Source: Opitutia bacterium (GTDB lineage: Bacteria > Verrucomicrobiota > Verrucomicrobiia > Opitutales > Opitutaceae). From it: a stretch of 64,000 nt of DNA. Of the stretch, positions 3,652 to 22,161 are shown piece by piece. Each line of letters opens with the position of its first letter. Within the stretch, counting starts at the first letter, position 1. The notes beneath the pieces were generated by a model, which ran no database searches, was not told the origin of the DNA, and saw only the letters and a program-made list of their open reading frames with translations. The stretch is taken from the NCBI GenBank assembly GCA_947453695.1, contig CANGHW010000003.1, positions 1 through 64,000 of the forward strand, given 5' to 3'. A program made the position numbers and the translations under genes.

Positions 3652-3753
3652 GGACGAGCCGAAAGGGGTGTGAGGTCCTAGCAAACGCAGGCGGCGAAAG
3701 ATTTCACGTGCGGGCGTATCCCACTTTCGTGCTGAGTATGCTCAAAATCAAAC

Positions 3754-3772
3754 CGGCGGCCATAAACCGCCG
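3754..3772 (-). terminator. Possible terminator after gpsA
   Basis: A 6-bp GC stem (CGGCGG paired with CCGCCG, 7-nt loop) lies just past the gpsA stop on the minus strand. It is followed in that direction by a T-rich stretch (GGTTTGATTTTG). The stem is short, so the call is moderate. Confidence 0.5.
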
Positions 3773-3792
3773 CGACCTTGGAAGTCGAAAAT

Positions 3793-4806: not shown

Positions 4807-4858
4807 GGCGTTGGTTTGCCCATGGAACACACGGAAGACACGGAAATTGAGGCGGGCG

Positions 4859-4884
4859 AAGGGCCGGTCGGAAGACCGACCCTT
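4859..4884. repeat. REP-like intergenic palindrome
   Basis: An imperfect hairpin, AAGGG(C)CGGTC-GGAA-GACCG(A)CCCTT, sits between lysA and gpsA. It resembles the terminator hairpin at 49812-49837 (CCGGTC/GACCGG core) and other palindromes in this window that end in CCGNCCCT. It could attenuate lysA read-through or be a member of a dispersed repeat family. Confidence 0.6.
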
Positions 4885-4900
4885 CTTGCGCAGATCACAC

Positions 4901-6205: not shown

Positions 6206-6471
6206 AAGCGCGGGCGAAGGGTCGGAGAAAAAAGTGCGAAAGCACCGAACGTAGCGAGTTTCCCCTTGAAAAAACGACACCAAATTTCGCTGATGCGGGC
6301 GTGCTTCGCGCCCTCCTCCATTTTTGTCGCCGTCCCGCCCTTCGTTTCGGGCTAAGACAGGACAATCGTGGGCGTTTTCGGGACCCGCGGTTCGCGAGTT
6401 TTATCGGCCAGAACAACCGCACCAAGCTCGATACGGACTTCCAAGACACCGTGCTGCGGGGTCGGAAACTG

Positions 6472-6555
6472 GTGAAGAATATCCTGCGTTTGGCCCTGTT
6501 CGGTGGCGGCGCGTGGATCGTAGTCGAGAGTGCCAAGGCATTGTCGGTCTTCTGA
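6472..6555 (+). CDS. Possible 27-residue membrane peptide
   Basis: A GTG-started frame encodes MKNILRLALFGGGAWIVVES followed by AKALSVF. It has a basic N-terminus, one hydrophobic segment and a stop just before the hairpin at 6577. The frame is open upstream to 6301, so a longer product (up to 84 residues) is possible. No recognised family and no clear ribosome binding site; treat as tentative. Confidence 0.28.
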   Translation: MKNILRLALFGGGAWIVVESAKALSVF

Positions 6556-6576
6556 GTAGGCCGGCCGGGCACGAAA

Positions 6577-6609
6577 AAGCGGCCCCCACGGCTGGCGCAG
6601 GGACCGCTT
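6577..6609 (-). terminator. Terminator for the small gene at 6633-6860
   Basis: On the minus strand, AAGCGG pairs with CCGCTT around a GC-rich interior, followed by TTTTCG. It lies 24 nt past the stop of the small membrane protein gene. Confidence 0.6.
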
Positions 6610-6632
6610 CTTCCAGTGCGAACCGGCGGAGA

Positions 6633-6860
6633 TCAGGCCGCCAGTCCAAGTCGTTCGCTACGCGTCGCGGTCGTGCCAGCGGTTGCCTGCGCTGACGTGG
6701 CGAAGCTCGTGCGAGTGGTCTGCGCATAGTCGCGGAAGGTGATCGCCAGAACGCCGACCACGGCGAAGAGCGACGTAGCGGCTTCGAGGCCGGCCGAGGT
6801 GAGAACCAAGGCGAAAAGCGCGGCGACCGAAGCGGCGAGAACGAAAGAGGATGTTTTCAT
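6633..6860 (-). CDS. Small hypothetical membrane protein
   Basis: A 75-residue protein beginning MKTSSFVLAASVAALFALVL. Two hydrophobic segments are visible (residues ~5-25 and ~30-48, the latter SLFAVVGVLAITFRDYA), so it is probably a two-span inner membrane protein or a cleaved export signal plus one span. The C-terminal tail is Thr/Ala-rich (TTRTSFATSAQATAGTTATR). The ATG at 6860 is preferred over one three codons upstream. It has its own terminator hairpin downstream. I do not recognise a family; the composition and clean start make it likely real. Confidence 0.65.
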   Translation of the reverse strand: MKTSSFVLAASVAALFALVLTSAGLEAATSLFAVVGVLAITFRDYAQTTRTSFATSAQATAGTTATRSERLGLAA

Positions 6861-7106
6861 GGTGAGCATTGAGTTGATGCCCTAAAAACACAGCGCGCGG
6901 CGGAAAGTTACAGGAAAGCGTGGCCAAGGTGGTCGCACCGACGATGAAGGAGAGCAGGCGTAGCCGCGCACAGCACAGCGCGGCGGCGCCCGCGCCTCAT
7001 GCCGACTCGAAGGAGGCCTGAGGGGTGGCCGCGAAAGGAATTTTTCCGGAGTTTTCCGCAGCCCGCCGCATTGACGCCCGGCGCGGCCTGCGCCCCACAA
7101 TCTGCA

Positions 7107-8648
7107 ATGTCCATCGCTCCGGTTCGCCCCACGCCGTTTCAGCGCCTCCTCAACCTCATCGAACGCGCCGGAAATATCCTGCCCAATTCCTCGACGCTCT
7201 TCGCCGGCCTGGCGGTCGGGGTGGTGCTGCTCTCATGGTGGGTGAGCGAACTCGGCGCGCAGGCAGTGCATCCCGCCACCGGGCAGGTCGTGCAGATCGT
7301 CAACCTCTGCTCAATCGAAGGCCTGCACCGGATGCTCGTGAACATCGTGCCGAACTTCATGGCGTTTCCTCCGCTCGGCAACGTGCTGGTGTGCCTGCTC
7401 GGCATCGCGGTCGCCGAGCGCACGGGGCTGATCAGCGCCGCGCTGCGCCTGATCGTCCTAAACGCCCCGCGCCGCCTGCTCACGCCGATCCTGATCTTCG
7501 GCGGCATCATGTCTCACTCGGGTGGCGACATCGGCTACGTATTGATGATCCCGCTGGGCGCAGCGGTCTTTCACACCGTGGGCCGCCACCCGATTGCCGG
7601 CCTCGCGGCGGTCTTCGCCGGTGTTTCGGGCGGCTTCAGTGCTAACCTGCTCATCAGCACGCTCGATCCTTTGCTCGCCGGAATCACTCAGGCCGCGGCC
7701 GCCGTGGTGAAACCCGGCATCGTGGTGCTCCCGACGGCGAACTATTATTTCCTGTTCACCGCGAGCTTCCTCCTCACGGCCATCGGCACCGTGGTGACGG
7801 AAAAAATCGTCGAGCCCCGCCTCGGTCCCTATACCGGGGCTGCACCGCGCGAGGAGTTAAAGCCGCTCACCGCCGCGGAGAAACGCGGGCTCTGGTGGAC
7901 GGCGGGCAGTTTGGCGCTGTTGGCCGCAGTGATCCTGTGGGGCCTGTTTGCCCCCGGCGGATTTCTGCTCGATCCGAAGAACCCCACATTCCTCGCCTCG
8001 TATTTCATGCGCGGCCTGATCGGCTTCATTTTCCTGATCGGCCTCACAGCCGGACTCGCCTACGGCCTCGGCGCACGGACGATCCTCAGCGACAGCGATG
8101 TGGTTCGCGGCATGGATGCGTCAATGACCACGATGGCTTCCTACATCGTGATGGCGTTTTTCGCCGCGCAGTTCCTCGCTTACTTCAACTGGACGAATCT
8201 TGGCACCGTCCTGGCGGTGAACGGCGCCGAGGGCATTAAGGCGCTGGGGCTGGATGGAAAACCGGTGCTGCTGATGGTGGCGCTCGTGCTGCTCTCGGCC
8301 GGCATCGATCTCGTAATGGGCAGCGCCTCGGCGAAGTGGACCCTGATGGCACCGATCTTCGTGCCGATGTTTATGCTGCTCGGCTACTCACCCGAGTTGG
8401 TGCAGGGCGCCTATCGCATCGGCGATTCGTGCTCCAATATCATTTCTCCACTCATGCTCTACTTCCCCCTGGTGCTGGGGTTTGCGCAGCGCTACGTGCC
8501 CTCGACCGGCATCGGCACCATGATTGCGACGATGATGCCGTATTCGATCACGTTCATCATCTCATGGACGTCGCTGCTGATCATCTGGATCGTGTGCGAT
8601 ATCCCGATGGGCCCAGGCGCCCCGCTGTTCCTGGCCAAAGAAGACTGA
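7107..8648 (+). CDS. AbgT-type p-aminobenzoyl-glutamate transporter
   Basis: Integral membrane transporter of 513 residues, the normal length for the AbgT family. It starts MSIAPVRPTPFQRLLNLIER at the ATG at 7107; the frame extends upstream, but that stretch lacks family features. Diagnostic segments are the first span (ILPNSSTLFAGLAVGVVLLSW), an early PPLGNVLVCLLGIAVAERTG loop and SHSGGDIGYVLMIPLGAAVF. Near the C-terminus are GSASAKWTLMAPIFVPM and RIGDSCSNIISPLM, the conserved re-entrant elements. Known members import p-aminobenzoyl-glutamate or export sulfonamides; the substrate here is not known. It is transcribed alone, convergent with sdhB. Confidence 0.93.
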   Translation: MSIAPVRPTPFQRLLNLIERAGNILPNSSTLFAGLAVGVVLLSWWVSELGAQAVHPATGQVVQIVNLCSIEGLHRMLVNIVPNFMAFPPLGNVLVCLLGIAVAERTGLISAALRLIVLNAPRRLLTPILIFGGIMSHSGGDIGYVLMIPLGAAVFHTVGRHPIAGLAAVFAGVSGGFSANLLISTLDPLLAGITQAAAAVVKPGIVVLPTANYYFLFTASFLLTAIGTVVTEKIVEPRLGPYTGAAPREELKPLTAAEKRGLWWTAGSLALLAAVILWGLFAPGGFLLDPKNPTFLASYFMRGLIGFIFLIGLTAGLAYGLGARTILSDSDVVRGMDASMTTMASYIVMAFFAAQFLAYFNWTNLGTVLAVNGAEGIKALGLDGKPVLLMVALVLLSAGIDLVMGSASAKWTLMAPIFVPMFMLLGYSPELVQGAYRIGDSCSNIISPLMLYFPLVLGFAQRYVPSTGIGTMIATMMPYSITFIISWTSLLIIWIVCDIPMGPGAPLFLAKED

Positions 8649-8666
8649 CCTCGGACTACAGCCAAC

Positions 8667-9479
8667 TCAGGCGCCGCCACCACCGGTGCTGGCGGCTTCC
8701 GGGCGGAAGGCGCTGCGGAGACTGGCGCTGAGATAGTCACGGTTTAAGCGGGCGATGAAGTCGTGGCTGATCGTCTTCGGGCAGGCGGCGCTGCACTCGT
8801 ATTGATTGGTGCAGTTGCCGAAGCCTTCTTCGTCCATCGTGTTAACCATGGCGAGGACGCGGCGGTCGCGCTCAGCCTGGCCCTGCGGGAGGAGGCCGAG
8901 GTGGCCGACCTTGGCGGAGACGAAAAGCATGGCGCTGGCATTTTTGCAGGCAGCTACGCAGGCACCGCAGCCGATGCACTGCGCGGCATCCATCGCGCGA
9001 TCAGCGTCGCCCTTCGGGACGGGAAGTCCATTAGCCTCAGGCGCGGAGCCGGCACGAGCGGTGATGAAGCCGCCGGCCTGCATAATCTTGTCGAAGGAGG
9101 TGCGGTCGACGACGAGGTCCTTGATGAGCGGGAAGGCGGCGGCGCGGAAGGGTTCGACGACGATAATGTCACCGTCGTGGAAGCTGCGCATGTAGGTCTG
9201 GCAGGTGGCGATGCCTTTGCCGGGACCGTGAGGCTTGCCGTTGATGGTGAGCGAGCAGGTGCCGCAGATGCCTTCACGGCAGTCGTGCGCGAAGGCGATT
9301 GGCTCTTCGCCGCGGGCGGTGAGCTCGTCGTTCACGACATCGAGCATCTCGAGGAAGGACATGTTCGGATTAAGGTCCTTGGCGGAGTAATCCTTGAACT
9401 GACCGAGCTCCTTCGGGCCGGACTGACGCCAGACGCGGAGAGTGACGCTGATGGATTTAGTGGAAGATGCGGCGACCAT
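8667..9479 (-). CDS. sdhB: Succinate dehydrogenase/fumarate reductase iron-sulfur subunit
   Basis: A 270-residue subunit that passes electrons from SdhA flavin to the quinone site. The N-terminal plant-type ferredoxin domain has the 2Fe-2S ligands in [10 protein letters not shown]. The C-terminal domain has [11 protein letters not shown] and [13 protein letters not shown] for the 4Fe-4S and 3Fe-4S clusters. It is the last gene of sdhC-sdhA-sdhB, 22 nt after sdhA, and converges with the AbgT transporter gene. The length and the single-cytochrome arrangement match the Bacteroidetes/Verrucomicrobia-type complex rather than the four-subunit E. coli enzyme. Confidence 0.97.
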
Positions 9480-9501
9480 GGCGGAGAGGGGTTAGTGCGG
9501 C

Positions 9502-11424
<1,923 letters not shown>

Positions 11425-11436
11425 GACGGTGAAGAT

Positions 11437-12207
11437 TTAGCGTTGGGCCGGGGCCGAGATTTTGGCGGATTGGGGGGAGAGTTTGCCGGCGAGAACGGCG
11501 CCGGGGATGGCGAGGTTGCCCACAAAGTAAGCGAGGCAGAACACGATGGCGACCTTACGGAGGCAGCCCGACCACTTGTTGGAGCGGAGGCCGAGGGTCT
11601 GGAAGAGGCTGTCGATGCCGTGGAGGAGGTGGAGGCTGAGGAGGCCGACCGCGATGATGTAGAACACCGCGACGATTGGGCTCTGGAAGCCGAGGATCAC
11701 CATGCTGTAGACATCGGCGACCTTGGTGCCCGCGTTGACCACCGGGAAACCGGCGACGCGGTAGTCGGCGGTAAGGACGTAGGACTTCAGGTTGTCCTTA
11801 AACGTCGCGGACTGCGCGGCGCCGAGGGTGAAGTGCGCGAGGTGATAGATTAGGAACGCGAGGACGATGTAGCCGGTCCAACGCATGGCGCGGGAGGCGA
11901 GCGTGGCCTGAATCGTGTGCTTGAAGCCGTAATTGGAGCCACGGGCAGCTTTGTTCTCCAGCGTGAGGACGGTGGCGGCCCAAATGTGGACGACGACGGC
12001 AACGATCAGGCCGATGCGCGCGACCCAAAGCAGCGGCCCGAGCTGGTGAAGGAACTGGGCGTAGCCGTTGATGTGGTCCGGGTGGGAGAAAATCTGCAGG
12101 TTGCCGACGAGGTGTCCGATCACGAAGCCGATCAGAATCACGCCCGTAACAGCCATGAGGATTTTCCGACCAATGGAGGAGCGGAAGAAGGAGCCGACAA
12201 GGTTCAT
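11437..12207 (-). CDS. sdhC: Succinate dehydrogenase cytochrome b subunit
   Basis: A 256-residue membrane anchor starting MNLVGSFFRSSIGRKILMAV at 12207. Five hydrophobic spans are visible with histidines suited to haem b ligation, for example VIGHLVGNLQIFSHPDHING, YHLAHFTLG and LLSLHLLHGIDSLFQTLG. The sequence matches the single-polypeptide (b558-like) cytochrome b family of SdhCAB complexes. It is the first gene of the operon; the 235-nt space upstream (12208-12442) should carry the promoter. I see no further gene in that space. Confidence 0.93.
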   Translation of the reverse strand: MNLVGSFFRSSIGRKILMAVTGVILIGFVIGHLVGNLQIFSHPDHINGYAQFLHQLGPLLWVARIGLIVAVVVHIWAATVLTLENKAARGSNYGFKHTIQATLASRAMRWTGYIVLAFLIYHLAHFTLGAAQSATFKDNLKSYVLTADYRVAGFPVVNAGTKVADVYSMVILGFQSPIVAVFYIIAVGLLSLHLLHGIDSLFQTLGLRSNKWSGCLRKVAIVFCLAYFVGNLAIPGAVLAGKLSPQSAKISAPAQR

Positions 12208-12442
12208 CGCAGGTAATCGCGGTTGGGGTGGTTGCGCAAGGTGGCGCAAAAATCGTCAAGCACCTCCCGGAAGTAAAGGGGCGCCTGCGGACAAGCACGC
12301 ATAAATTAGCGAGCCTAACCTTTTTCAGAAGGCGGGCACGGGGCGGAGGCCGGGACACGACCACCCCGGAACCTATAAAGACGGACAACACGAGGGATAT
12401 CCTGGCGCAGCGCAAATCTGGGGCGCGGCCTACCTCGCTCGC

Positions 12443-13702
12443 TTAGCGAGCTAGCGGCTTGAGGAGGGCGAACTTTCCGCTGGCGGCGGGCGCAATGAAC
12501 TTACGGCGGAAGGCGTTTACCCGGGCCCCGGACCCCAACATCGCGGCGAGGGCGAGCTCGACCTCACGGTGCGCGGCGGTTTCGTCGGCGACATAGTGGA
12601 AGTCCCACCGGGACTCGCCGGTTTGGATCAGCGAGTAGTGCCAGCATTGGAAGCTGTCCGGCAGGGCCGCATCGACATCTGTGGGCGAAACCAGCGAGCC
12701 ATCGGGGCGGAAGTAGAGGTTACCCTCGCGACCGAGCAGACGGAAGCCCGTGGAGAACTTCTGCACGATATCGCCCGTGTGGTAGCGCAGCAGCGGCATC
12801 GCCTCGCGGTCGCGAGTGGTGACGTAAATCTGAAAAACGTCCGGCAAGCCGGCACGCCAAGGGACAAGCTCGATGAAGGCGTTGGCGTCGATGACCTGAG
12901 AGTTGTCCTTAAAGGCTTCGCCGACGAACAGGTAACCCGCCTCGGTCGAGCCATAGAGATCGACTTGAGCGGCGGGAAATACCTCGGCGATGCGCGCACC
13001 GTGTTGGGTGCTGGCTTTGCCGTAAGTGAGGATCACGGCTTTGACGCTCGGGACGGTCACGCCGCGCTTCTTCGCAGCCCGGGCGAGGAGAGAGAGGTAG
13101 ACAGGCTCGCCCTCGATGACCTCGGGCTTGGTAGCTTGGAGTTCGCGGACGATGCGGTCCCACTCGCCCTCGGGGAAGGCGAACGGGTCGCTCGAGAGAT
13201 TGAGGTAAACAATCCCGTCGAAGTAGCGGTGCGGAAACGGGTGATCCTCGTAGGGGCAGAGGTTGCTGGAGCAGCCGACGGGGGCGAGGACGCACTTGCG
13301 ATAGCTGCGTCCCGCGAACTCGCGCAAGATCGGCGAGGCGCGATAGGCGCGCTCGGTCTGGGCGTTCCACCAGCCGTCTTCCATGATCACGGTCATGGGT
13401 GACTGCGTGGTGCCGCCGGTGCTCTCGTATTCGAATTTCTTCTCGGCGAGACCACGCTCAATCACCGCGTAGTCGGTAAAAAACGCCTGGTGCCCGCGCT
13501 CGACGATTTCCTTTTTCGAGAGGGCGGGGATCTCGTTGTAGCACGACCATTGCAATGGCTCGGAGTGCAACGGAAAGCGCTGTCCGTAGAGCGGGCTGCG
13601 TTCGTAGATCTTTCGCACCTCGCGCTCCAGAGGCCCGGGCAGAAAACCTTCAGGAGCGGAGCCGAGCGTGGCAGGAGCGTTGGCGAACGTGGGAGCGGAC
13701 AT
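12443..13702 (-). CDS. PaaK/phenylacetate-CoA-ligase-like adenylate-forming enzyme
   Basis: A ~419-residue protein starting MSAPTFANAPATLGSAPEGF at 13702. It has the features of the PaaK-like branch of the ANL superfamily: an N-terminal RSPLYGQRF helix region, the Thr/Gly phosphate loop YESTGGTTQSPMTVIM, an LTYGKAS segment, DLYGSTEAGYLFVG and LLRYHTGDIV. The C-terminal domain (FRPDGSLVSPTDVDAALP) ends shorter than canonical PaaK (~430-440 residues). The reaction is expected to be activation of a carboxylate as an acyl-adenylate and possibly CoA thioester; the substrate cannot be read from sequence. It is downstream of the Nudix gene on the same strand (37-nt gap). Confidence 0.8.
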   Translation of the reverse strand: MSAPTFANAPATLGSAPEGFLPGPLEREVRKIYERSPLYGQRFPLHSEPLQWSCYNEIPALSKKEIVERGHQAFFTDYAVIERGLAEKKFEYESTGGTTQSPMTVIMEDGWWNAQTERAYRASPILREFAGRSYRKCVLAPVGCSSNLCPYEDHPFPHRYFDGIVYLNLSSDPFAFPEGEWDRIVRELQATKPEVIEGEPVYLSLLARAAKKRGVTVPSVKAVILTYGKASTQHGARIAEVFPAAQVDLYGSTEAGYLFVGEAFKDNSQVIDANAFIELVPWRAGLPDVFQIYVTTRDREAMPLLRYHTGDIVQKFSTGFRLLGREGNLYFRPDGSLVSPTDVDAALPDSFQCWHYSLIQTGESRWDFHYVADETAAHREVELALAAMLGSGARVNAFRRKFIAPAASGKFALLKPLAR

Positions 13703-13739
13703 CGTGGGAGTATGCAGGTAAGCAGCGGCGAACAGATAG

Positions 13740-14327
13740 TCAAACGACGCCCGCAGGCAATCGGCCGCGCCAGTGCGGTTCGAAGAGGAACAGAGCATTG
13801 AGCACGAGGGCGTGCGTGATGCCGCCGGCGCGGGCACAGGCCAAGACCTCTTCGACCGGCACGGTCGTCACGGCGATTTCCTCATCGGCATCCCACTCCA
13901 ATGCTTCCGACTGCACCGCATCCTCAACGAGCACGAAGTGGCAGCGATTGGACTGAATCGCAGGATTCGGGTGCGTGCTCCCGAGCAGGCGCGCACGTGC
14001 CCCGACGTAGCCAGTTTCCTCGCGGAGTTCGCGCAAGCCGGCCTCAATCGGGTCCTCGCCGGCTTCCATCACGCCGCCGGGGATTTCGAGGGAAAAGGCG
14101 TCGATGCCGAAGCGGAATTGCCGCACCAGCACGAGTTCGCCGCCCGGCGTGACGGCGAGGACGTTGCACCAGTCCGACGGGTGCACGACGACGAAGTTTT
14201 TTTCTGTGCCGCGCACCGGGTGTCGATAGCGCACACTCAGGAGATCGAGCACGCGGGTCGTGGCCTGAGTGGTCTGGCCAAGACGTTCCCAACGCGAGGG
14301 GCCGGAGGCAGATGAGGGCGAACTCAT
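13740..14327 (-). CDS. Nudix hydrolase, ADP-ribose pyrophosphatase-like
   Basis: A 195-residue cytoplasmic enzyme with a complete Nudix box GGVMEAGEDPIEAGLRELRE followed by ETG, giving the catalytic REXXEE glutamates that bind Mg2+. The preceding VLVRQFRFGIDAFSLEIPGG is typical of the ADP-ribose/nucleoside-diphosphate-sugar pyrophosphatase subfamily. The start is the ATG at 14327. It lies between the LysM gene's terminator and the PaaK-like gene, so it probably starts its own short operon. Confidence 0.9.
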   Translation of the reverse strand: MSSPSSASGPSRWERLGQTTQATTRVLDLLSVRYRHPVRGTEKNFVVVHPSDWCNVLAVTPGGELVLVRQFRFGIDAFSLEIPGGVMEAGEDPIEAGLRELREETGYVGARARLLGSTHPNPAIQSNRCHFVLVEDAVQSEALEWDADEEIAVTTVPVEEVLACARAGGITHALVLNALFLFEPHWRGRLPAGVV

Positions 14328-14366
14328 AGGACGAAACGGTAGAGCTGGGCGGCGGTTGAAAACAAA

Positions 14367-14399
14367 AATGCCTCCCAGCCGCTGGGGCGAGGAGGCATT
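14367..14399 (-). terminator. Rho-independent terminator of the LysM gene
   Basis: On the minus strand AATGCCTCC pairs perfectly with GGAGGCATT (9 bp) and is followed by TTTTTGTTTTC, starting 25 nt past the stop at 14424. Confidence 0.85.
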
Positions 14400-14423
14400 G
14401 GGGACACGCGCAGGGCGCGGAAA

Positions 14424-14951
14424 TTATTTCTTCGGGAGCTTAACCTTCTGGCCAGCGCCCAGCTTGTTCCAGTTCACGCCGGGATTGACGGCTTGGAGGT
14501 CGGAGAGGGAAACGCCATTGGCGCGAGCGATCTTGGCACCGGTATCGCCACCCTTGACGACATACTCACCAGGACCAGCGACCACGGGACCGCCACCCTT
14601 CTTGCCTTCTTTGCCAGCGGGAGCCGGAGCGGGCTTCTTGGCGGCTTCTTCGAGCTTGGTGATGGCGCCACGGAGATTGCCGAGCTCGCCACCGACTTGG
14701 TTAAACGCGTCCTGCATCTGACCGCGGAGAGCCGTGGCAGATTTATCCGCCTTGTCGGCAGAAGCAGCGGCAGCTTGGGCCTGACTCTCGATGGTGTCCA
14801 CCTTGTCGATCTTAACCTGGTGCTCGGCGAGGGTCTTGTTGACCTTCGAAATTTGCAGCAAAGCAATGCCGCCGAGGAGCAATCCGATGACGCCGACCAC
14901 GATGCCGCCGACCGGGAGCATGCTGTTGTTTTCGCGAGAAATGGTATCCAT
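14424..14951 (-). CDS. Membrane-anchored coiled-coil protein with C-terminal LysM domain
   Basis: A 175-residue protein starting MDTISRENNSMLPVGGIVVG at 14951. One membrane span (residues ~12-32, GIVVGVIGLLLGGIALLQI) is followed by a short coiled coil (KVNKTLAEHQVKIDKVDTIE) and an Ala/Lys-rich linker. The C-terminal LysM domain (EYVVKGGDTGAKIARANGVS, ending GQKVKLPKK) binds glycan, so the protein probably ties the inner membrane to peptidoglycan. Two larger LysM coiled-coil proteins are encoded at the right end of the window. The gene is monocistronic with its own terminator. Confidence 0.85.
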   Translation of the reverse strand: MDTISRENNSMLPVGGIVVGVIGLLLGGIALLQISKVNKTLAEHQVKIDKVDTIESQAQAAAASADKADKSATALRGQMQDAFNQVGGELGNLRGAITKLEEAAKKPAPAPAGKEGKKGGGPVVAGPGEYVVKGGDTGAKIARANGVSLSDLQAVNPGVNWNKLGAGQKVKLPKK

Positions 14952-15010
14952 GAGTGAAAGGTAAGAGCGGACAAGAAGGACAATCGGGACCCTAGGCAAG
15001 CAGAGATTAT

Positions 15011-16450
15011 TCACATTTCCCCTCGTAAATCGGTGGCAAAGGGCCGCCCAAACGCCCGGCGCAAATCAGGGAAATTCGCATGATTCGCGCCCAGAATGAA
15101 GGCAGCGATTGACACGCCCGACCTTACCCCCTCCCCTGCCCATCCACCGTCGGGGTGTAGCTTAGCCTGGTAGAGCGCCTGGTTTGGGACCAGGAGGTCG
15201 TAGGTTCGAATCCTATCGCCCCGACCATTTTCATTTTCGCCCGTTTTTTCGGAATTTACCTCTGAAAACGTAGAAGGCGACACGCGACAAAGAAGCTCGG
15301 TGAGCTTCGCTAAAATCTCCCGCGCGGCTTCCGAATTGTTCGCTTTTTGTGCGTCAGGTTGTGCGTCGCCCCGACCGAGCCACGGCAGTTTCGTCCAATC
15401 ATTCAAGGGCAGGCCGCTCACGTCCGTGTAACGGGTTCCCATCCGATTTGGGTTCGCGTGACCCAACACCGCATCGCAGACGCGTTCACTCACACCGCAC
15501 CTCACAGCAAACGTGCGCGCCGTCTTTCTGAACGCGTGCCGATGCACCACGCGCCCGAGAGTGTCGCGCCGCTCGATGCCTGCGGCGTCGAGGTCGCGAA
15601 ACAGCTCCTTGCGGCTTGGCGCACGCGCGAAAACCCGCCCACTCACGTCGGACAAGGCACGCAGCTTGAGCAGTTCACGCACGAGCCCCGGGTGCAGCGG
15701 CACGACCCGCTCGATTCTCGCTTTCGTTGTGCTCGCACGGAAGACGGCCGCGGCCGATGCGTCGAGGGTCAGCGTCAGATCGGCCCAGCACAGCGCCGCA
15801 ACCTCCGCCACGCGCGCCCCGGTATAGAACAGTGCTTGAAAGAAGAGCGTGCGGGTATTCGCCAGCGCAAACAATGCGCGCAATTCATCATCGGAAAACG
15901 CCCGCGACGGCCGCACTTCCCTGCCCCGCGAACTCACGAGGTCGAGTTTCGCCAGCGGATTCCGTTCAAGCAGTTCCATCCGCACGAGCCAGTTGAGGAA
16001 GGCACGCGCCGAAAGTTGATATTCCCGGTTCGTCTTGGCGGAGGTCGTGAGCCCTGCGAACCAGCGCTCGAAGGCGTCCGCACGAACATCGGCCAGCGTA
16101 TGCCAACCGATTTCCACCGCCATGCGCTCCAAACGCTTCACCGTGTCGCGGACATACCCTTTGCTGAGCCGCCGGCTTTCGAGGTAGCGGCGATAATCCG
16201 TGCGCAGCTCGGACAGCGACGTTTTCTGCGCCTCACGCATCGCCTTCGGTGACTCCATCCCCTCGGCCTCGCGCTGCTTTTCCACGATCAAATCCCGGAG
16301 CCGCTTCCGGGCAACCTGTGCGTCCGGCGTATCGAGAGGGACCGTCACCATCGGCAGACCGCGCCCGAGGCTGTAGCGACCAACGAAGACGCGAGAAAGC
16401 ACGCGCTTTCCCTTCACCCTGCGAGATCGTTTGAAGACGTATTCCGTCAC
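15011..16450 (-). CDS. Tyrosine recombinase/integrase (C-terminus continues through attL and the tRNA)
   Basis: A 479-residue frame from a GTG start at 16450. The N-terminal region (residues ~80-165) is a SAM-like core-binding domain with SKGYVRDTVKRLERMAVEIG. The catalytic domain (~180-345) has all expected residues: Arg213 in TGARVAEV, Lys243 in TTKARIERVV, His305 and Arg308 in HAFRKTAR, His331 in LGHANPNRMG and nucleophile Tyr341 in TRYTDV. Residues ~411-424 are encoded by the attachment core antisense to tRNA-Pro (RGDRIRTYDLLVPNQ), and residues 425-479 come from host DNA beyond attL. In the excised circle the same frame would instead read 45 different codons and stop at rep. The tail is therefore state-dependent. 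It mediates site-specific integration and excision. Confidence 0.93.
   Translation of the reverse strand: MTEYVFKRSRRVKGKRVLSRVFVGRYSLGRGLPMVTVPLDTPDAQVARKRLRDLIVEKQREAEGMESPKAMREAQKTSLSELRTDYRRYLESRRLSKGYVRDTVKRLERMAVEIGWHTLADVRADAFERWFAGLTTSAKTNREYQLSARAFLNWLVRMELLERNPLAKLDLVSSRGREVRPSRAFSDDELRALFALANTRTLFFQALFYTGARVAEVAALCWADLTLTLDASAAAVFRASTTKARIERVVPLHPGLVRELLKLRALSDVSGRVFARAPSRKELFRDLDAAGIERRDTLGRVVHRHAFRKTARTFAVRCGVSERVCDAVLGHANPNRMGTRYTDVSGLPLNDWTKLPWLGRGDAQPDAQKANNSEAAREILAKLTELLCRVSPSTFSEVNSEKTGENENGRGDRIRTYDLLVPNQALYQAKLHPDGGWAGEGVRSGVSIAAFILGANHANFPDLRRAFGRPFATDLRGEM
15151..15227 (+). tRNA. tRNA-Pro (anticodon TGG)
   Basis: A 77-nt cloverleaf with encoded CCA end. The acceptor stem CGGGGTG pairs with CGCCCCG (one G-U). 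The anticodon stem is CCTGG/CCAGG with loop TTTGGGA, so the anticodon TGG (15185-15187) reads CCA proline codons. The T arm contains GTTCGAATC. The 3' half from 15179 on is the left attachment site of the integrative element, and an identical copy of that half lies at 19194-19246. Confidence 0.97.
15179..15231 (+). repeat. attL, 53-bp attachment core within tRNA-Pro
   Basis: This stretch is identical over 53 bp to 19194-19246. It begins in the anticodon stem of the tRNA and ends four T residues after CCA. Flanking bases differ on both sides, which defines the repeat exactly. Confidence 0.97.
15347..15366 (+). repeat. Candidate integrase arm site, left
   Basis: Tandem TTGTGCG-N5-TTGTGCGT, 116 bp inside attL. 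The same arrangement, spacing and orientation occurs at 19113-19132 near attR. Two matched repeats flanking the core is the layout of arm-type integrase or excisionase binding sites; function is inferred. Confidence 0.55.
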
Positions 16451-16517
16451 AGCAGCTATTAGCAGCGTATGCTGTTTTACTTGGCAAGTGCTATTTGCTG
16501 GCTATTGCTGCTCACAA
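16449..16517. promoter_or_regulatory. Divergent int/RHH control region with repeated operator-like motifs
   Basis: The 67-nt space between the int start and the RHH-like gene start contains AGCAGCTATTAGCAGC (16451-16466) and, inverted further right, GCTATTTGCTGGCTATTGCT (16490-16509), whose complement reads AGCAATAGCCAGCAAATAGC. A TTGGCA at 16481-16486 could be a -35 element for the rightward gene. The repeats are candidate operators for the RHH protein encoded next to them. Confidence 0.5.
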
Positions 16518-17123
16518 ATGGCCGACAAACGCCGCTACACGGTTTCCCTTCCCGACCACGTCGCCGACGCCGTCGAAAAACACGCCCGCCCGATAGGCTC
16601 GACCCCTACCGAATACGCCGCCGACGTGATCCGCTGGTGGTTTGGACAGGGCTGCCCCGCCGTCACCCACGACGAGGCCGAACTGCGCAAAACGAAGTCA
16701 GTGGACGACCTCGCGAAGCGCATTCTGCCCATTCCGGACGACCTCAACGCCTGGGCGCTCGACGCCAAAAAAAACTATCACATCTCGGACGACGGTGTCG
16801 TCCAAAAGCTCCTCGATCAGCTTGGGTTGCCGAACCTATTTGCCCACGCCGCCGAGCACGACCGCGTCCGCCTCCTCTTCGCCTTCGACAACCACCCCAC
16901 GCATTGGGTCGTCACAGAAGTGTTCAAGGGAAGCAATCGCCCCGACGGCGATGGGCTGGCATTTCAAGCGTATCCGAAACTCACCGTCAGCCGCGAGGAG
17001 ATGATCAAACGTCTCGCCGTCACAGCGAAAGAGATGGGCGCGAGTGAAAAGGTCGTGTTCTCACAAATTCCCGATGCCGCTTCAAAACTGCCGCGACAGA
17101 TTTCTAAAGGCACTGCAAAGTAG
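16518..17123 (+). CDS. Ribbon-helix-helix-like protein of the element
   Basis: A 201-residue protein starting MADKRRYTVSLPDHVADAVE at the ATG at 16518. The beginning has the beta strand (RYTVSLP) plus two-helix pattern of ribbon-helix-helix DNA-binding proteins, continuing EYAADVIRWWF. The remaining ~160 residues (KNYHISDDGVVQKLLDQLGL; RVRLLFAFDNHPTHWVVTEV) match no family I recognise. It is the only element gene transcribed rightward and is divergent from int across a repeat-rich spacer, which suits a repressor or excisionase-like regulator. That role is inferred from position and fold only. Confidence 0.75.
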   Translation: MADKRRYTVSLPDHVADAVEKHARPIGSTPTEYAADVIRWWFGQGCPAVTHDEAELRKTKSVDDLAKRILPIPDDLNAWALDAKKNYHISDDGVVQKLLDQLGLPNLFAHAAEHDRVRLLFAFDNHPTHWVVTEVFKGSNRPDGDGLAFQAYPKLTVSREEMIKRLAVTAKEMGASEKVVFSQIPDAASKLPRQISKGTAK

Positions 17124-17136
17124 AGATTGGCCGAGC

Positions 17137-17601
17137 CTACCTGCCAAAGACGTGTAACTCGGTCGTCGACTGGGTCGATGGGGTAGGCTCTTTTGGCTCA
17201 AGCAGCCAAATTGGAACATAAGCATGCTCTGGTCCGCTATTGCCTTTGAGGCTCGCTTTAGTGCCGATGTGGAGGCCGTCTTCACGCCACTCAATCGTCC
17301 CGAAACGAGCAACTGCCTGTTCGTGCGAAAGGACTGAACCCATCACCCAGCTGTATCGCAGCCGTAGTGATTTCTCATGAGAGTAAATATTAAGCACCAG
17401 TTTATTGTAGTGGCCCGCTGGCTCAAAGTGAACGTAGGCCCCGTATGGGCCTGCTCGAAACCGGCTCTCGCTCCATGCCGCGACAACGAGCTGTCCGAAT
17501 TCCACGTCAGCTGCTTTTCTTGCTGCTAACGCACCGACGCTGTAACCCGCCCACAGAAGAGCGACGGTCAGCGTGATGGAGATTGCGAGCGCTCGCGGCA
17601 T
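17137..17601 (-). CDS. Hypothetical membrane-anchored protein of the element
   Basis: A 154-residue protein from the ATG at 17601 (a GTG five codons upstream is possible). It starts MPRALAISITLTVALLWAGY, a single hydrophobic signal anchor. The rest is a soluble, probably periplasmic domain with many aromatics (RFRAGPYGAYVHFEPAGHYN, LRLRYSWVMGSVLSHEQAVA). The tail is Pro/Thr/Ser-rich. It lies downstream of rep in the same direction and ends 13 nt from the convergent RHH gene. I do not recognise a family. A role in entry exclusion or host interaction is conceivable but unsupported. Confidence 0.65.
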   Translation of the reverse strand: MPRALAISITLTVALLWAGYSVGALAARKAADVEFGQLVVAAWSESRFRAGPYGAYVHFEPAGHYNKLVLNIYSHEKSLRLRYSWVMGSVLSHEQAVARFGTIEWREDGLHIGTKASLKGNSGPEHAYVPIWLLEPKEPTPSTQSTTELHVFGR

Positions 17602-17736
17602 TTTTCGACCCAACACTGTTTACACCGAACGGCTCTTCGAGTTCGAAATTAAACCATTCGGCCTATTCACGACGAAAACGAATCGGCTCGAATCGAGGCG
17701 GCGCGCGAAACCCGGACTTACACCGCATTTCGGTCG

Positions 17737-19059
17737 TCAATTCCTAACGCGCGAAACGATGCGAATGTCGTGGGGCGTCTCCGCGTCCCACATCAGCGTC
17801 ACGGTCTCCGTGTTCCTATCTCGCTCTTCCTCGGCACGCTGATGGGCACAAGCGCACTTCTTAACTGCCGCATAGATCTTCTCAGTTGTCTCCTGAATTT
17901 TCGACTGACGTTGGGCCGCGTCTCCCAAGCGAAAGCAAAGCCCACCTTCGTAGGCCAAACCGCCCCACAAATGCCGGACGTCGTCGTCCGAGATGCGCCC
18001 GTCGGCCATCGCGTGTTTCAGCGTGGGATAACAGCGTAATTCCTCAGCGCGAATCTGGTCGCCGCGGTGATAGGCCCAACTCTTCCCAAACTTTTTCCGC
18101 ATGCCCTCGAAATCGCTGATGCCGTGACGGTCGGCGAACTGCGCGAGCTTGGCGCGCCAGAGCCATGAGCCGGGATTGACGAAGGAAAACCGGCAGCCGA
18201 CGCGACGCGCACCTCGCGAATAGCGCACCAACCGAGCCCCCTTGTCGCGGACCTCACGTTGGGCGATGTGCTTCGCGATGTATTTCCCCACATACTTCGC
18301 CAACCCCTCATCGTTCGACTTTACCGGCATCAACTCCGTCCGACCGAATCCGTAGGGCTTCGCGGTCTTCCGCCAAAATGCCCACTCGCTACGCAGCCAA
18401 AGATTCGCGCTGCGATAGTCCCCGCCCCTCATCGCCGCGAAGTCGAAGCCCTCTCGAATGTCCACGGGTAACACTACGAGCAGATGAAAATGGATACGCC
18501 CGCTTAGTTGGCGCTCCAGCACGCAAATCGTCTCGCGATAACGTTCCGCAAGCACGTGCGTGCGGAGTGAGTTGTATCGCCGAGAGGCCTCTTTCACCTC
18601 GGTCACGTGATCAGCAAACGTGAGCGTCAGAAACCCAATCGACCCCACGCCATAGACGGCACACATGCGCCGGACGTTCTCTTGCAGCGCATACGCGGTC
18701 TTGCGCTGGGCACTGGTGAGGCGCGAAAGGCCCGCCAGAATTTTCCCTTCGGTTGAATTGTTTTTATTTAGACAAGGAAGGGCGGCCGAGCCCGCCGCGC
18801 CGCCCTGCGGGCGGCTGCGGTGGGCCACGTCCGCCCAATCCGGAGCCAACGCCGAAACGACTTCGCACCCGCTGAGGGGGGAATCCGACAGGCCGCCCGC
18901 TTCGCGGGGGGGTATCGGCCTGACCGTGTCGAATTCCGCGCTGGAGGCGCGGCAAGAGGGCTCATTGCCGCCCTCTAGACTCCTGCTAGGGGAACTAAGA
19001 GGCGGACCGCGGCGCAGCGCAGGCGCGCCGCCGTGTGCGCTGAGATCGGCCACGCTCAT
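17737..19059 (-). CDS. rep: HUH-family rolling-circle replication initiator (phiX174 gpA-like motifs)
   Basis: A 440-residue protein if started at the ATG at 19059; the first ~95 residues are low-complexity Pro/Ser/Gly/Arg, so the start is uncertain. The conserved part begins near LNKNNSTEGK. It contains motif I FLTLTF (about residue 145), the HUH metal motif HFHLLVVLP (His190 and His192), and YVGKYIAKH (Tyr256, Tyr260, Lys263). The two tyrosines four residues apart followed by Lys match the YVAKYVNK active site of phiX174 gpA, placing it with two-Tyr Rep endonucleases. It would nick a double-strand origin and become covalently attached to the 5' end. In the circular form its ATG overlaps the int stop codon (ATGA). 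Confidence 0.85.
   Translation of the reverse strand: MSVADLSAHGGAPALRRGPPLSSPSRSLEGGNEPSCRASSAEFDTVRPIPPREAGGLSDSPLSGCEVVSALAPDWADVAHRSRPQGGAAGSAALPCLNKNNSTEGKILAGLSRLTSAQRKTAYALQENVRRMCAVYGVGSIGFLTLTFADHVTEVKEASRRYNSLRTHVLAERYRETICVLERQLSGRIHFHLLVVLPVDIREGFDFAAMRGGDYRSANLWLRSEWAFWRKTAKPYGFGRTELMPVKSNDEGLAKYVGKYIAKHIAQREVRDKGARLVRYSRGARRVGCRFSFVNPGSWLWRAKLAQFADRHGISDFEGMRKKFGKSWAYHRGDQIRAEELRCYPTLKHAMADGRISDDDVRHLWGGLAYEGGLCFRLGDAAQRQSKIQETTEKIYAAVKKCACAHQRAEEERDRNTETVTLMWDAETPHDIRIVSRVRN
18799..18976. other. Hairpin-rich segment in the 5' part of rep, candidate origin
   Basis: Three perfect stems occur close together: GCCGCCC/GGGCGGC (18799-18815), CCCGC/GCGGG (18896-18908) and AGAGGGC/GCCCTCT (18955-18976). 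The encoded peptide here is low-complexity, unlike the rest of Rep. Clustered hairpins beside a HUH initiator gene are common at rolling-circle origins; the nick site itself cannot be identified. Confidence 0.4.
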
Positions 19060-19112
19060 CGCACTGCCACCCCTCGCGCGAGCCTCAACAAAACGTCCAC
19101 CAACGCGCAAAC

Positions 19113-19132
19113 TTGTGCGCGTAGTTGTGCGT
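19113..19132 (+). repeat. Candidate integrase arm site, right
   Basis: Tandem TTGTGCG-N5-TTGTGCGT, 61 bp inside attR, in the same orientation and with the same 12-bp period as the copy at 15347-15366. Just before it, GCGCAA at 19105-19110 is an inverted match to TTGTGCGC. Confidence 0.55.
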
Positions 19133-19193
19133 TTGCCTCCCCCGGCGCGACCCTACACGCCAGCTCACCAACTACTTCCGCGAACTCGCCCCG

Positions 19194-19246
19194 CTGGTTT
19201 GGGACCAGGAGGTCGTAGGTTCGAATCCTATCGCCCCGACCATTTT
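19194..19246 (+). repeat. attR, 53-bp attachment core
   Basis: An exact copy of 15179-15231 that contains only the 3' half of tRNA-Pro. It ends 3 nt before the stop codon of the response regulator gene at 19250, so the uninterrupted locus had tRNA-Pro converging on that gene. Confidence 0.97.
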
Positions 19247-19249
19247 GCC

Positions 19250-20620
19250 CTAGGAGGCGGCGGGAGGATCGACGGGAAGCCCCTGTTCGCGCATCCGCAA
19301 CAGCTTGTAGGTCAGGGCACGGCGGCTGATCGCCAGTTCCTTCGCGGTTTCAGTGCGATTATAGCCGTTTTTCTTCAGCGCCTTCAAAATGGCGTCGCGC
19401 TCGATCTCTTCGAGGCGGGATGCCTCGGCGGCATCACCGGCCGGAGCCTCGGCGGTGGCCGCCATGATGCGCGCGGGCAGGTGCTCGGGGAGCACGATTT
19501 CGCCGCGGGAAAGCAACGCGGCGCGCTCCATCGCATTCTTCAATTCGCGGACGTTGCCCGGCCAGCGGTAGCGCGTGAGACCGGTAACCACCGTCGCGGA
19601 GAAACGCGGTTTTTGCCGGGAAAATATACCGATGAAATGGGTCGCGAGCGGCAAAATGTCCTCAGGGCGCTCGCGCAGGGGCGGGATGTGAATTTCGATC
19701 ACATTGAGTCGATAAAACAGATCTTCGCGGAACTTGCCGGCGGCGATTTCGCCTTCGAGGTCGCGATTGGTGGCAGCGAGCACGCGGGTATCGGTGCGTA
19801 TATCGCGCGCGGACCCGATGCGACGAAAGGTGCCGTCGTGGATCACGCGCAGTAATTTCGCCTGCAGGGCCATGGGCAGTTCACCGATTTCGTCGAGCAA
19901 GAGCGTGCCGCCATGGGCCTCCTCGAAGCGGCCGATCCGCTGCTGGGTGGCCCCGGTAAACGAACCCTTCTCATGGCCGAACAGCTCGCTCTCCAGCAGG
20001 TTCTCGGGAATCGCGGCGCAGTTGATTTTAACGAGAGGACCGGCGGCGCGGGGACTCCACGCGTGGATGAGATCGGCCACGACTTCTTTACCGACTCCGC
20101 TCTCGCCCGTGAGCAGCACCCGGCTGTCGGATGGCGCGATCACGGCGGCGTCCCGGAACACCGCGGTCATGAGCGGACTGCTCGTAATGACATCGGGAGG
20201 AATCTGCGCCTCCGCGGCAGGAGCGGCGAGGGCCGATACCGGAGCACGCGTCGCTTTCCGGACGGTGACGATGAGTTCGTCGAGGTCGATGGGTTTGGCG
20301 AGGTAGTTGACGGCGCCGTCGCGCATCGCAGTGACGGCGCTGCGAATATCGGCGAATGCCGTCACCAACAGGACGGGGAGATCGGGGTGTTTTTGGCGCA
20401 CGCGGCGCAGAGTCTCCAAGCCCGACATGCCCGGCATGCGCACATCGGAGATCATCATGGCATATTTGCCCTCTTCGAGCAGCTGGAGGGCCGCTTCGCC
20501 GGTGGCGGCGCATTGAGTCGGATAGCCGTGCGACTGGAGAAACGTTTCGAGCAGGCTCCGCTGGGCGCGGTCGTCGTCGACGATCAAAATGCGGTGAAGA
20601 GAAGCGGTGGCGGGACTCAT
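19250..20620 (-). CDS. Sigma-54-dependent response regulator (NtrC family)
   Basis: A 456-residue regulator starting MSPATASLHRILIVDDDRAQ at 20620. The receiver domain has the phosphoacceptor Asp59 in ISDVRMPGMSG and the conserved Lys in YLAKPIDLDEL. The AAA+ domain has Walker A GESGVGKEVV, the sigma-54 contact loop as ELFGHEKGSFTGA (Ser replaces the usual Ala of GAFTGA, a known natural variant) and Walker B GGTLLLDEIGELP. The C-terminal Fis-type HTH is YNRTETAKELAISRRALTYK. Its ATG overlaps the stop of the histidine kinase gene (ATGA), so the two are translationally coupled. It ends 3 nt from attR with no terminator visible, so read-through into rep is possible. Confidence 0.95.
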   Translation of the reverse strand: MSPATASLHRILIVDDDRAQRSLLETFLQSHGYPTQCAATGEAALQLLEEGKYAMMISDVRMPGMSGLETLRRVRQKHPDLPVLLVTAFADIRSAVTAMRDGAVNYLAKPIDLDELIVTVRKATRAPVSALAAPAAEAQIPPDVITSSPLMTAVFRDAAVIAPSDSRVLLTGESGVGKEVVADLIHAWSPRAAGPLVKINCAAIPENLLESELFGHEKGSFTGATQQRIGRFEEAHGGTLLLDEIGELPMALQAKLLRVIHDGTFRRIGSARDIRTDTRVLAATNRDLEGEIAAGKFREDLFYRLNVIEIHIPPLRERPEDILPLATHFIGIFSRQKPRFSATVVTGLTRYRWPGNVRELKNAMERAALLSRGEIVLPEHLPARIMAATAEAPAGDAAEASRLEEIERDAILKALKKNGYNRTETAKELAISRRALTYKLLRMREQGLPVDPPAAS

Positions 20621-22161
20621 GCCGGTGACGAAGCGATCGTGAGATGGCTGAAACGAAACAGGGCGCCGCGCGGCACGTTGGCCAGGCACGCCACTTCCCA
20701 CTGGTGGGCCGCGGCGATTTGGGCGACGATGGCCAGGCCGAGGCCGACGCCCTTCGGGCGCATGGTGACGTAGGGCTTGAAGATGTTGGCGCGGTCGGCT
20801 TCCGGCACACCGGGGCCGTCGTCGGCGATTTCCAGCGTGGCTTCGCCGTCGCCAGCCGGCACGAGTCGCACCACGATCTGGCCACCGGGCGCGACGGCTT
20901 GCGTGGCGTTGAGCAGGACATTGAACAACGCCTGCCGCAGGAGCTGCTCGTCGGCCGCGATGCTCAACGTCGATTCCGGCGTGCGGAGTTCGAGGCGCTT
21001 TTCCTCGAGATCGGGCACGAGCGTGCGGGCGACATCGGCCACGAGGCGCGCGAACTGCACGGGCGCGAGGTGCGGTTCGCGCGGTTTCGAGTAGTTGATG
21101 AATTCGTTGAGCTGCACCGTGACGCGGTCGGCTTCCTCAATGATCGTCGCGGCGTGCTCGCGCAACTTCGGCACCTCCTTCGCCTGCATCGAAATCATCT
21201 GCGCGAGACCACGGATGAGGTTGAGGGGATTGCGCGTCTCGTGCGCGAGGCCGGCGGCGGTGAGGTTGAGTTCCTTGAGGTGGGCGTTCATCTCACCGGC
21301 TTTGACGAGGCGGATCTGGAGCTCGGTGTTCTTCCCAACGTTGCGCCAGGCGAGCACGGACACGATGGCGCCGCCCATCGCGAGCAGGCTCACGAGGGAG
21401 CGCAGCAGCAGGTCCGCGCTGACTTTTCTCCGCATGTCGGCCGTCGACAGCGAGAGCACGAGACTGTGCACCCCCTGCTTTTGGATGAGTGCTTCGTAGT
21501 CTTCCTTGGGCATGCCGGAGGGACGGCCAAAAACCGAGCGACCGACCCCGGCGGTCTGCGTTTCAGGCGCGGGCACCGCGACCGGAGGATTGGCGGGGCC
21601 GGCCGGCGCCAGCGGATCAACCGCCGGAGCCGTGGTCGCATCCGCGGCCCGCCGCGCCGCCGTGGGACGAAAACTCCCGAGGGCCCGCGCCTGCCGGTCG
21701 TCATCCGCCACCACGATCCTCGGACGCGGCCGCGAGCCTTCTTCGCCCGCGCCCGCGCTCAGGTCCATCAGGTTCATGATGGTGACCGACCGATCGCGCC
21801 AATACGGGCCGCCGGCGGCGAGCATGTCGGGCGTGAGGTCCACCCGCGCACCGGCGCTCGCGATCGTCGTGCCCGAAGCGCCCAGAACGGAAATGGATTC
21901 GAGTTCCTCGGGTCGCACCAAGTCCTGCAGCGCCGACTCCAGACGCTCCTTGGAAATGACGATGCTCCCGTAGATGCGTCGCTGGGCGCGCAGCAGGACG
22001 CCCAACGTCGAGGTGATGTCGCGCCCGCGATTGATCAATGCCGCCTCGGCATTGCGCTTAAAACGGAAGTGCTCCTCCACCTGCCAGCCGCACACGGCCA
22101 GCCCGCATCCAATCAGGGAGCAATAGATAACCAGACGACGTTTGGCGGCGGGCGAGCCCAT
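20617..22161 (-). CDS. Membrane sensor histidine kinase
   Basis: A 514-residue kinase starting MGSPAAKRRLVIYCSLIGCG at 22161. An N-terminal membrane span is followed by a ~230-residue extracytoplasmic region with an Ala/Pro-rich insert. A second span (SLLAMGGAIVSVLAW) precedes the kinase core. The H-box is LAHETRNPLNLIRGLAQMI with the phosphorylated His near residue 305. The N box and G boxes (LNATQAV, ADDGPGVPEADR, GVGLGLAIVAQI) complete the ATPase domain. It forms a pair with the overlapping NtrC-type regulator, and lies 53 nt after the secretin gene of the type II secretion operon. Control of that operon is plausible but not shown. Confidence 0.93.
   Translation of the reverse strand: MGSPAAKRRLVIYCSLIGCGLAVCGWQVEEHFRFKRNAEAALINRGRDITSTLGVLLRAQRRIYGSIVISKERLESALQDLVRPEELESISVLGASGTTIASAGARVDLTPDMLAAGGPYWRDRSVTIMNLMDLSAGAGEEGSRPRPRIVVADDDRQARALGSFRPTAARRAADATTAPAVDPLAPAGPANPPVAVPAPETQTAGVGRSVFGRPSGMPKEDYEALIQKQGVHSLVLSLSTADMRRKVSADLLLRSLVSLLAMGGAIVSVLAWRNVGKNTELQIRLVKAGEMNAHLKELNLTAAGLAHETRNPLNLIRGLAQMISMQAKEVPKLREHAATIIEEADRVTVQLNEFINYSKPREPHLAPVQFARLVADVARTLVPDLEEKRLELRTPESTLSIAADEQLLRQALFNVLLNATQAVAPGGQIVVRLVPAGDGEATLEIADDGPGVPEADRANIFKPYVTMRPKGVGLGLAIVAQIAAAHQWEVACLANVPRGALFRFSHLTIASSPA

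Follow-up and report, generated by a model that had tools for sequence, protein, structure and literature searches.

What happens to an integrase gene and a replication gene at opposite ends of an integrated element when excision brings those ends together? This question is raised by a 4015-bp element (measured as the spacing of its 53-bp flanking repeats) in the stretch analyzed here, 64,000 nucleotides of contig CANGHW010000003.1 from an Opitutia bacterium (hereafter, the window). The element is integrated in tRNA-Pro, and its flanking direct repeats match the 3' end of that tRNA, which identifies it as a tRNA-targeted integrative element. One end carries a tyrosine recombinase gene (int), the other a rolling-circle replication initiator gene (rep), each present in a single copy in this genome. 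As read from sequence comparison, the attachment (att) site of the excised circle, attP, almost certainly lies within int itself, between a complete catalytic domain and a C-terminal tail, and the locus is probably best explained as a small integrative rolling-circle element with attP in its own integrase gene. The parts on which this argument depends are as follows:

15179-15231: att core at the int end, a 53-bp exact direct repeat comprising the tRNA 3' end plus 4 bp
19194-19246: att core at the rep end (attR), the other copy of the 53-bp exact direct repeat
15151-15227, plus strand: tRNA-Pro(TGG), the integration target, which remains intact (ARAGORN)
15232-16450, minus strand: element-borne part of int, tyrosine recombinase (PF00589, 4.3e-11; phrog_1, 3.6e-34)
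15011-15178, minus strand: host-encoded int end when integrated, 55 residues past the core and then a stop
19056-19193, minus strand: int tail of the predicted circle, 45 codons plus TGA (19058-19056), with a weak match to the tail profile
17737-19059, minus strand: rep, a rolling-circle (HUH type) initiator whose ATG overlaps the circle stop of int (PF23343, 8.7e-10; phrog_3419, 2.5e-9)

Joining the ends as in the predicted circle gives a minus-strand frame of 469 amino acids (aa) that runs from the GTG at 16450 through 15232, the core, and 19193 downward. The last base of the core completes codon 424, 45 further codons come after it, and the TGA overlaps the rep start (19059-19057) as ATGA. 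In the integrated state, int encodes 479 aa, ending in a different, host-encoded tail with its stop at 15013-15011. An earlier note on this DNA had claimed the frame across the core, the overlap, and the exchanged tail, and the circle join confirms all three. The R, H-x-x-R, and Y residues at aa 210, 305, and 337, which we take to be the catalytic motifs, all precede the core, which begins at aa ~407, and the Rep encodes an HUH H-x-H motif (H190 and H192) that is invariant across 18 aligned sequences. The G+C content at the three codon positions is 0.78/0.50/0.63 in the tail, 0.66/0.49/0.72 in int, and 0.63/0.51/0.72 in rep, a low second-position value being common to all three, and the rep ATG is preceded by a purine-rich stretch. 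In the window element and its delimited relatives, the integrase gene is upstream of the rolling-circle rep across attP only.

Relatives were sought from both genes of this junction. A protein search with the window Rep gave matches in 34 of 252 same-family genomes, and an 18-sequence Rep profile matched 24 of 384 class-level and 11 of 387 phylum-level (Verrucomicrobiota) genomes (the samples overlap, and the window's own genome is included in these counts). From 63 contexts read, 32 co-directional rep-int pairs (24 + 8) were examined, 21 of which, including the window, have a recognizable att repeat at a tRNA-like core. The tail was also used as an anchor; a strict tail pattern matched only 1 of 11 loci, and a profile was used instead. 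By itself, this tail profile gave matches in 39 of 286 genomes at class level, 48 of 252 at family level, and 27 of 387 at phylum level (again overlapping samples), with at most 15 to 24 candidates scored per genome in the first look. In 15 of the 40 tail contexts read, an int open reading frame (ORF) and a tRNA occur together with an att repeat of 22 bp or more; 14 of these are new once L207 is dropped as a duplicate of L101. The resulting 36 delimited elements (21 Rep-found, 14 tail-found, and one tandem neighbor) occupy 13 recognized tRNA isotypes, with no tRNA called in three elements, and all come from genomes of the window's bacterial class; tails without delimited elements occur in further classes of the phylum. 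The att repeats of L034 differ by one base of spacing and were joined at the tRNA part; an alternative join at another sub-repeat gives an int of 433 aa and no overlap.

The earlier note proposed comparing related elements for the open attP frame, and it is kept there: the int frame remains open past the core in all 36 delimited circles, none of which has an early stop, so that the att site is inside the integrase gene in every case. The tail is 36-122 codons long (median 65.5), whereas the two alternative frames of that DNA have a median open length of 9 codons, with 6 of 72 being 36 codons or longer. When elements are anchored on the tail, it continues the int frame at the att repeat in 15 of 15 cases (14 new), and the chance of 14 in-frame joins at one third each is 2e-7.

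What the earlier note missed is the larger point that this post-attP stretch is, for most of the delimited relatives, a conserved C-terminal domain of the integrase. The domain has the approximate consensus PELxxxVxAWPxLRxELRAAILALVxAAKG, and 31 of the 36 elements score at least 29 bits with its profile; in the Rep-found set, 16 of 21 tails score at least 31.7 bits. Across 27 aligned domain codons of 20 tails, mismatches number 2545, 1931, and 3337 at codon positions 1, 2, and 3, and the proportion of synonymous differences exceeds that of non-synonymous ones in 184 of 190 pairs, although these pairs are not independent. AlphaFold2, run on the tail alignment, returned two helices (predicted local distance difference test 94-95 for residues 41-60; predicted template modeling score 0.42); the stretch before them is poorly ordered, and ~30 residues are confidently folded. 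Searches of Pfam and PDB with the tail found no convincing sequence relative. In the tail loci printed, the translation before the domain is, by eye, mostly a tRNA-antisense peptide (GFEP, GARTR, GIRT), so an orphan tail behind such a peptide marks one element end and can serve as an easy guide to these elements and their limits. The conserved tail after attP means that integration and excision alter the integrase gene as well.

Shared cores that are read in different frames serve as natural controls. A single tRNA-Asn in G361 (L101, oriented 3825-16333) holds two related elements, one behind the other with a common core, which the upstream int reads as AARAGIEP and the downstream int as GCPGWDRT. 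Joined to its own tail, each int remains open (565 and 509 aa), while exchanging the tails cuts the frames short just past the core (459 and 454 aa). The possibility that a tail is the leftover of another element's int is rejected for this pair, since each int fits only its own tail. Similarly, L063 on the one hand and L043 and L044 on the other, all in tRNA-Ser(cga), differ in the frame through an identical core, and across the 36 elements the T-loop is in frame 0, 1, or 2 in 21, 14, and 1 cases, respectively. The in-frame joins and the tandem pair reading their own tails together place attP inside int, and imply that excision restores both the tail and an int-rep operon. In a separate observation, the tail ends of L102 and L101 are closely similar, and the later part in L101 lies in another frame.

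The junction with the downstream gene is also recurrent. The end of the tail frame and the beginning of the next ORF (of at least 100 aa) share 4 bases in 19 of 36 elements and 8 bases in 4 more; among 287 control stops, taken from the two alternative frames of that DNA, the count is 14 for a 4-base overlap and 15 for either. The ATGA-type overlap that the earlier note proposed to look for in relatives is thereby borne out as frequent, but not as general: 13 of the 36 have neither a -1 nor a -5 overlap, with gaps of up to 163 nt, and three have no next ORF called. The overlap and the purine-rich stretches that precede many rep starts suggest translational coupling. The next gene is Rep in 21 elements by way of finding; for the tail-found elements, the scan covered the next gene in 12 of 14, and nine of these genes have a match (E<=0.01) in a rolling-circle Rep family, which for seven of the nine exceeds the Pfam cut-off. 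Two divergent rep genes adjoin in one locus of G164 (L038, 8591-11168), with two integrase ORFs nearby.

Several observations weigh against the attP-in-int reading or limit its reach. Domain scores are partly circular, as 13 of the 16 profile rows come from the Rep-found set and the 14 tail-found elements were selected by the profile. The L036 tail scores 14.8 bits, those of L031, L033, and L055 score below 3 bits, no better than shuffles, and the window tail itself scores 2.7 bits against the family tail profile (A4), a value equaled by 15 of 1000 shuffles. This weak score, with the frame and the ATGA overlap kept, makes the window element one whose tail domain is either missing or difficult to recognize. 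No tRNA-like peptide precedes the tail in L248, and in L249 the peptide is not clear. Eleven of the 32 rep-int pairs have no recognized att repeat and stand outside the 36, although in three of them (L051, L061, and L108) a tail upstream of rep follows a tRNA-antisense peptide. The other 31 of 63 Rep contexts show no int, an int fragment, or other int layouts: the Rep relatives with int on the other strand include L103, L110, L117, L120, and L122, and in L111, L115, L116, L119, L121, and L125 the chromosomal copy already has int ahead of rep on the same strand. The layout is therefore common, not universal, among Rep relatives. The tail contexts are also mixed, with neither int nor core match in 17 of 40, a core and no int ORF in three (L179, L194, and L213), and int without a recognized core in five (L178, L182, L189, L195, and L199). 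Next genes of three tail-found elements (L175, L181, and L187) gave no Rep family match, and those of L200 and L212 were outside the scan. In L184 and L203, the tail follows tRNA-Ser in the tRNA sense direction, which is another arrangement of tail and target.

With attP placed within int, a cycle can be proposed. In the integrated state, the tail and rep lie at attR, and int keeps its whole catalytic domain with a host-encoded end; on excision, the order int-core-tail-rep would be restored in the circle. A single int-tail-rep transcript could then be made, with rep translated by coupling to int, and such coupling would mean that rep is well expressed only after excision. That excision acts as a switch for rep is a proposal in which we place somewhat more belief than doubt. 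The fusion of int and rep across attP, as claimed in the earlier note, is real and recurs in relatives, but its further claim of replication switched on by excision is no more than a plausible proposal, and is weakened by the adjoining host gene and a promoter scan. The host gene (19250-20701) is co-directional with rep and ends 4 bp from attR, and because it is directed into rep, read-through into rep is possible in the integrated state. A scan limited to sigma-70 type promoters found no promoter-like site before int, which slightly lowered our confidence in the switch; its two matches, one of them upstream of rep (19387-19358), do not stand out clearly from a chance expectation of 0.9.

The tail may additionally give circle-form Int an activity unlike that of the integrated form. 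Tail-bearing Int would favor integration between attP and the chromosomal site (attB), the tail-less form would be adapted to, or too weak for, excision, and after circle replication, tail-bearing Int could reinsert a copy. The most likely course is that the tail renders circle-form Int integration-competent, so that direction would be set by the state of the DNA; for a directionality switch of this kind, our confidence falls just short of even. Equally tentative is the wider proposal that these elements represent a widespread bacterial integrase class with attP in its own gene, in which recombination edits the recombinase, providing a built-in direction switch without a separate excisionase, and rolling-circle replication is licensed by a 4-base overlap. 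If the two Int forms do differ in activity, this would explain how small elements could control direction unaided, and the gene structure also ties replication to excision.

The alternative that fares best, which we consider improbable overall, is that the tail is needed for all Int activity, such that integration disables Int until another copy or element supplies it, and that rep coupling serves the circle phase only. Archaeal SSV-type integrases act in this manner (PMC8371274). Half of the orphan-tail contexts (20 of 40) have no int ORF in the stretch, several of these stretches being short or at a contig end; L056, L059, and L064 look broken up, and the two tandem elements in G361 suggest that entry has happened more than once. 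However, the catalytic motifs of the window int all precede the core, and the int frame reaches the core in elements delimited at both ends, which favors an integrase that changes its end over one that is disabled.

It is unlikely that the tail is a separate small protein in the integrated state, either an excisionase-like factor or a leader peptide of rep, with the fusion to int incidental. At 36-122 aa and directly before rep, it would suit such a role, and recombination directionality factors are similar in size. A possible start codon precedes the conserved block in 11 of the 32 elements that score above 10 bits, and host DNA upstream of the core might supply one, but in the other 21 there is no ATG, GTG, or TTG between core and block, and ATG occurs in only 1 of 32. 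An independent small gene is made unlikely by these 21 elements, and such a gene would leave unexplained why the tail continues the int frame in the tandem pair and in each of the 14 elements newly found through the tail. Among the matches listed, five tail-containing frames exceed 260 aa, and none consists of integrase plus tail; four have no integrase-profile match to that frame, and the fifth is a rep frame. In L113 (G257, 3028-4566, minus strand), the tail domain is in frame inside a 513-aa rep frame, and tail and Rep may there be one protein.

Very little speaks for a frame that is open by accident, in a G+C-rich attP arm region with Int arm sites, although some elements do have two-sided short repeats in these stretches and the window tail match is weak: the codon-position pattern, the 36 open frames, the early closure of the other frames, and the excess of stop/start overlaps lead us to reject chance in G+C-rich DNA.

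The remaining features of the window element and its border are as follows:

15347-15366, minus strand: putative arm-type Int site, two GCACAA, within int before the core
19113-19132, minus strand: putative arm-type Int site, two GCACAA, within the tail after the core
16431-17123, plus strand: ORF of 230 aa, divergent from int, without a convincing family match; its true start may be further downstream
17137-17616, minus strand: ORF of 159 aa, without a family match
19250-20701, minus strand: host response-regulator-like gene (named by eye, from the ORF list) adjoining attR and directed into rep

The GCACAA repeats flank the window core on both sides, inside the coding frame, with a score that 11 of 300 shuffles equal, and some relatives carry longer two-sided repeats around the core; such repeats are presumably arm sites for Int. 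The element also contains a 19-nt inverted repeat (16781-16799 and 17977-17995; 89% complementary, 1177 nt apart). Near the rep start (18740-18920), there is a G+C-rich stretch with an LPCLNSNNS-like motif that recurs in most aligned Reps, and this region is possibly a candidate replication origin. Rep residues ~20-56 are matched at 73-88% away from rep in L028 and L029.

Free forms were sought as terminal overlaps, indicative of circles, in 11 loci (six of them whole contigs), and none were found. Searches of viral contigs with the window Rep and A2 gave no relative, the L045 tail had no match in plasmids and phages, and the L045 int had none in viral contigs; these results also count against the proposed free circle. 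In IMG/VR, seven viral contigs (L129-L135, A3 search) encode distant relatives of the window Rep at 41-46% identity, and these Reps may link the elements to small phages. Twenty-six plasmid records match the window Rep, and the 20 listed do so at 46-58% identity over 50-70% of the Rep. Three of these 20 are annotated "phasyl DNA replicon protein arp," a likeness to the Arp/phasyl-type mini-plasmids, but the 20 records are 0.7-2.1 kb long, hardly or not enough to hold int as well.

Among known systems, Tn916-type elements have transcription across the circle joint, and we know of no reading frame that crosses it. A literature search of titles and abstracts, with few subscription journals covered, found no bacterial attP-spanning integrase gene with a conserved tail, which is weak evidence of absence. 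The closest precedent is SNJ2, an archaeal betapleolipovirus, in which excision joins the int operon to replication genes ending in a rolling-circle Rep, and an ORF spanning attP (orf26) is translated and required for replication (PMC13107129). Both systems, the present one by prediction from sequence, have an excision-built operon from int to a rolling-circle Rep with an ORF across attP, so the earlier note's impression that an int-rep fusion through attP was undescribed does not hold for the operon, although it does for the bacterial attP-spanning int with a conserved tail, for which no counterpart was found and which is, on that evidence, apparently new. In SNJ2, orf26 is a separate gene downstream of int within an 11-ORF operon that has a mapped start inside int (PMC13107129), whereas here, reading from the genes alone and in bacterial hosts, it is int that runs across attP, usually with a conserved tail, and its end often overlaps rep.

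A coding gene that contains attP and whose C-terminus changes with state is also found in the integration-dependent immunity of mycobacteriophage BPs. There, attP is in the repressor gene, the prophage protein differs at its C-terminus from the free-phage form, and the lost tail carries a degradation tag (PMC4557955). Here, attP is in int and not in a repressor gene, and coupling to a replication gene is not mentioned for BPs in the passages of that report consulted. Finally, the "suicidal" integrases of SSV, pTN3, and pT26-2 likewise have the att site within the integrase gene, are split by integration, and are called exclusive to archaea (PMC8371274). In those systems, the catalytic domain is parted from the N-terminal part, whereas in the elements described here it remains whole, the window motifs all lying before the core, and only the C-terminal tail is exchanged. 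The bacterial family swaps a protein end, a milder and perhaps more useful version of the archaeal arrangement.

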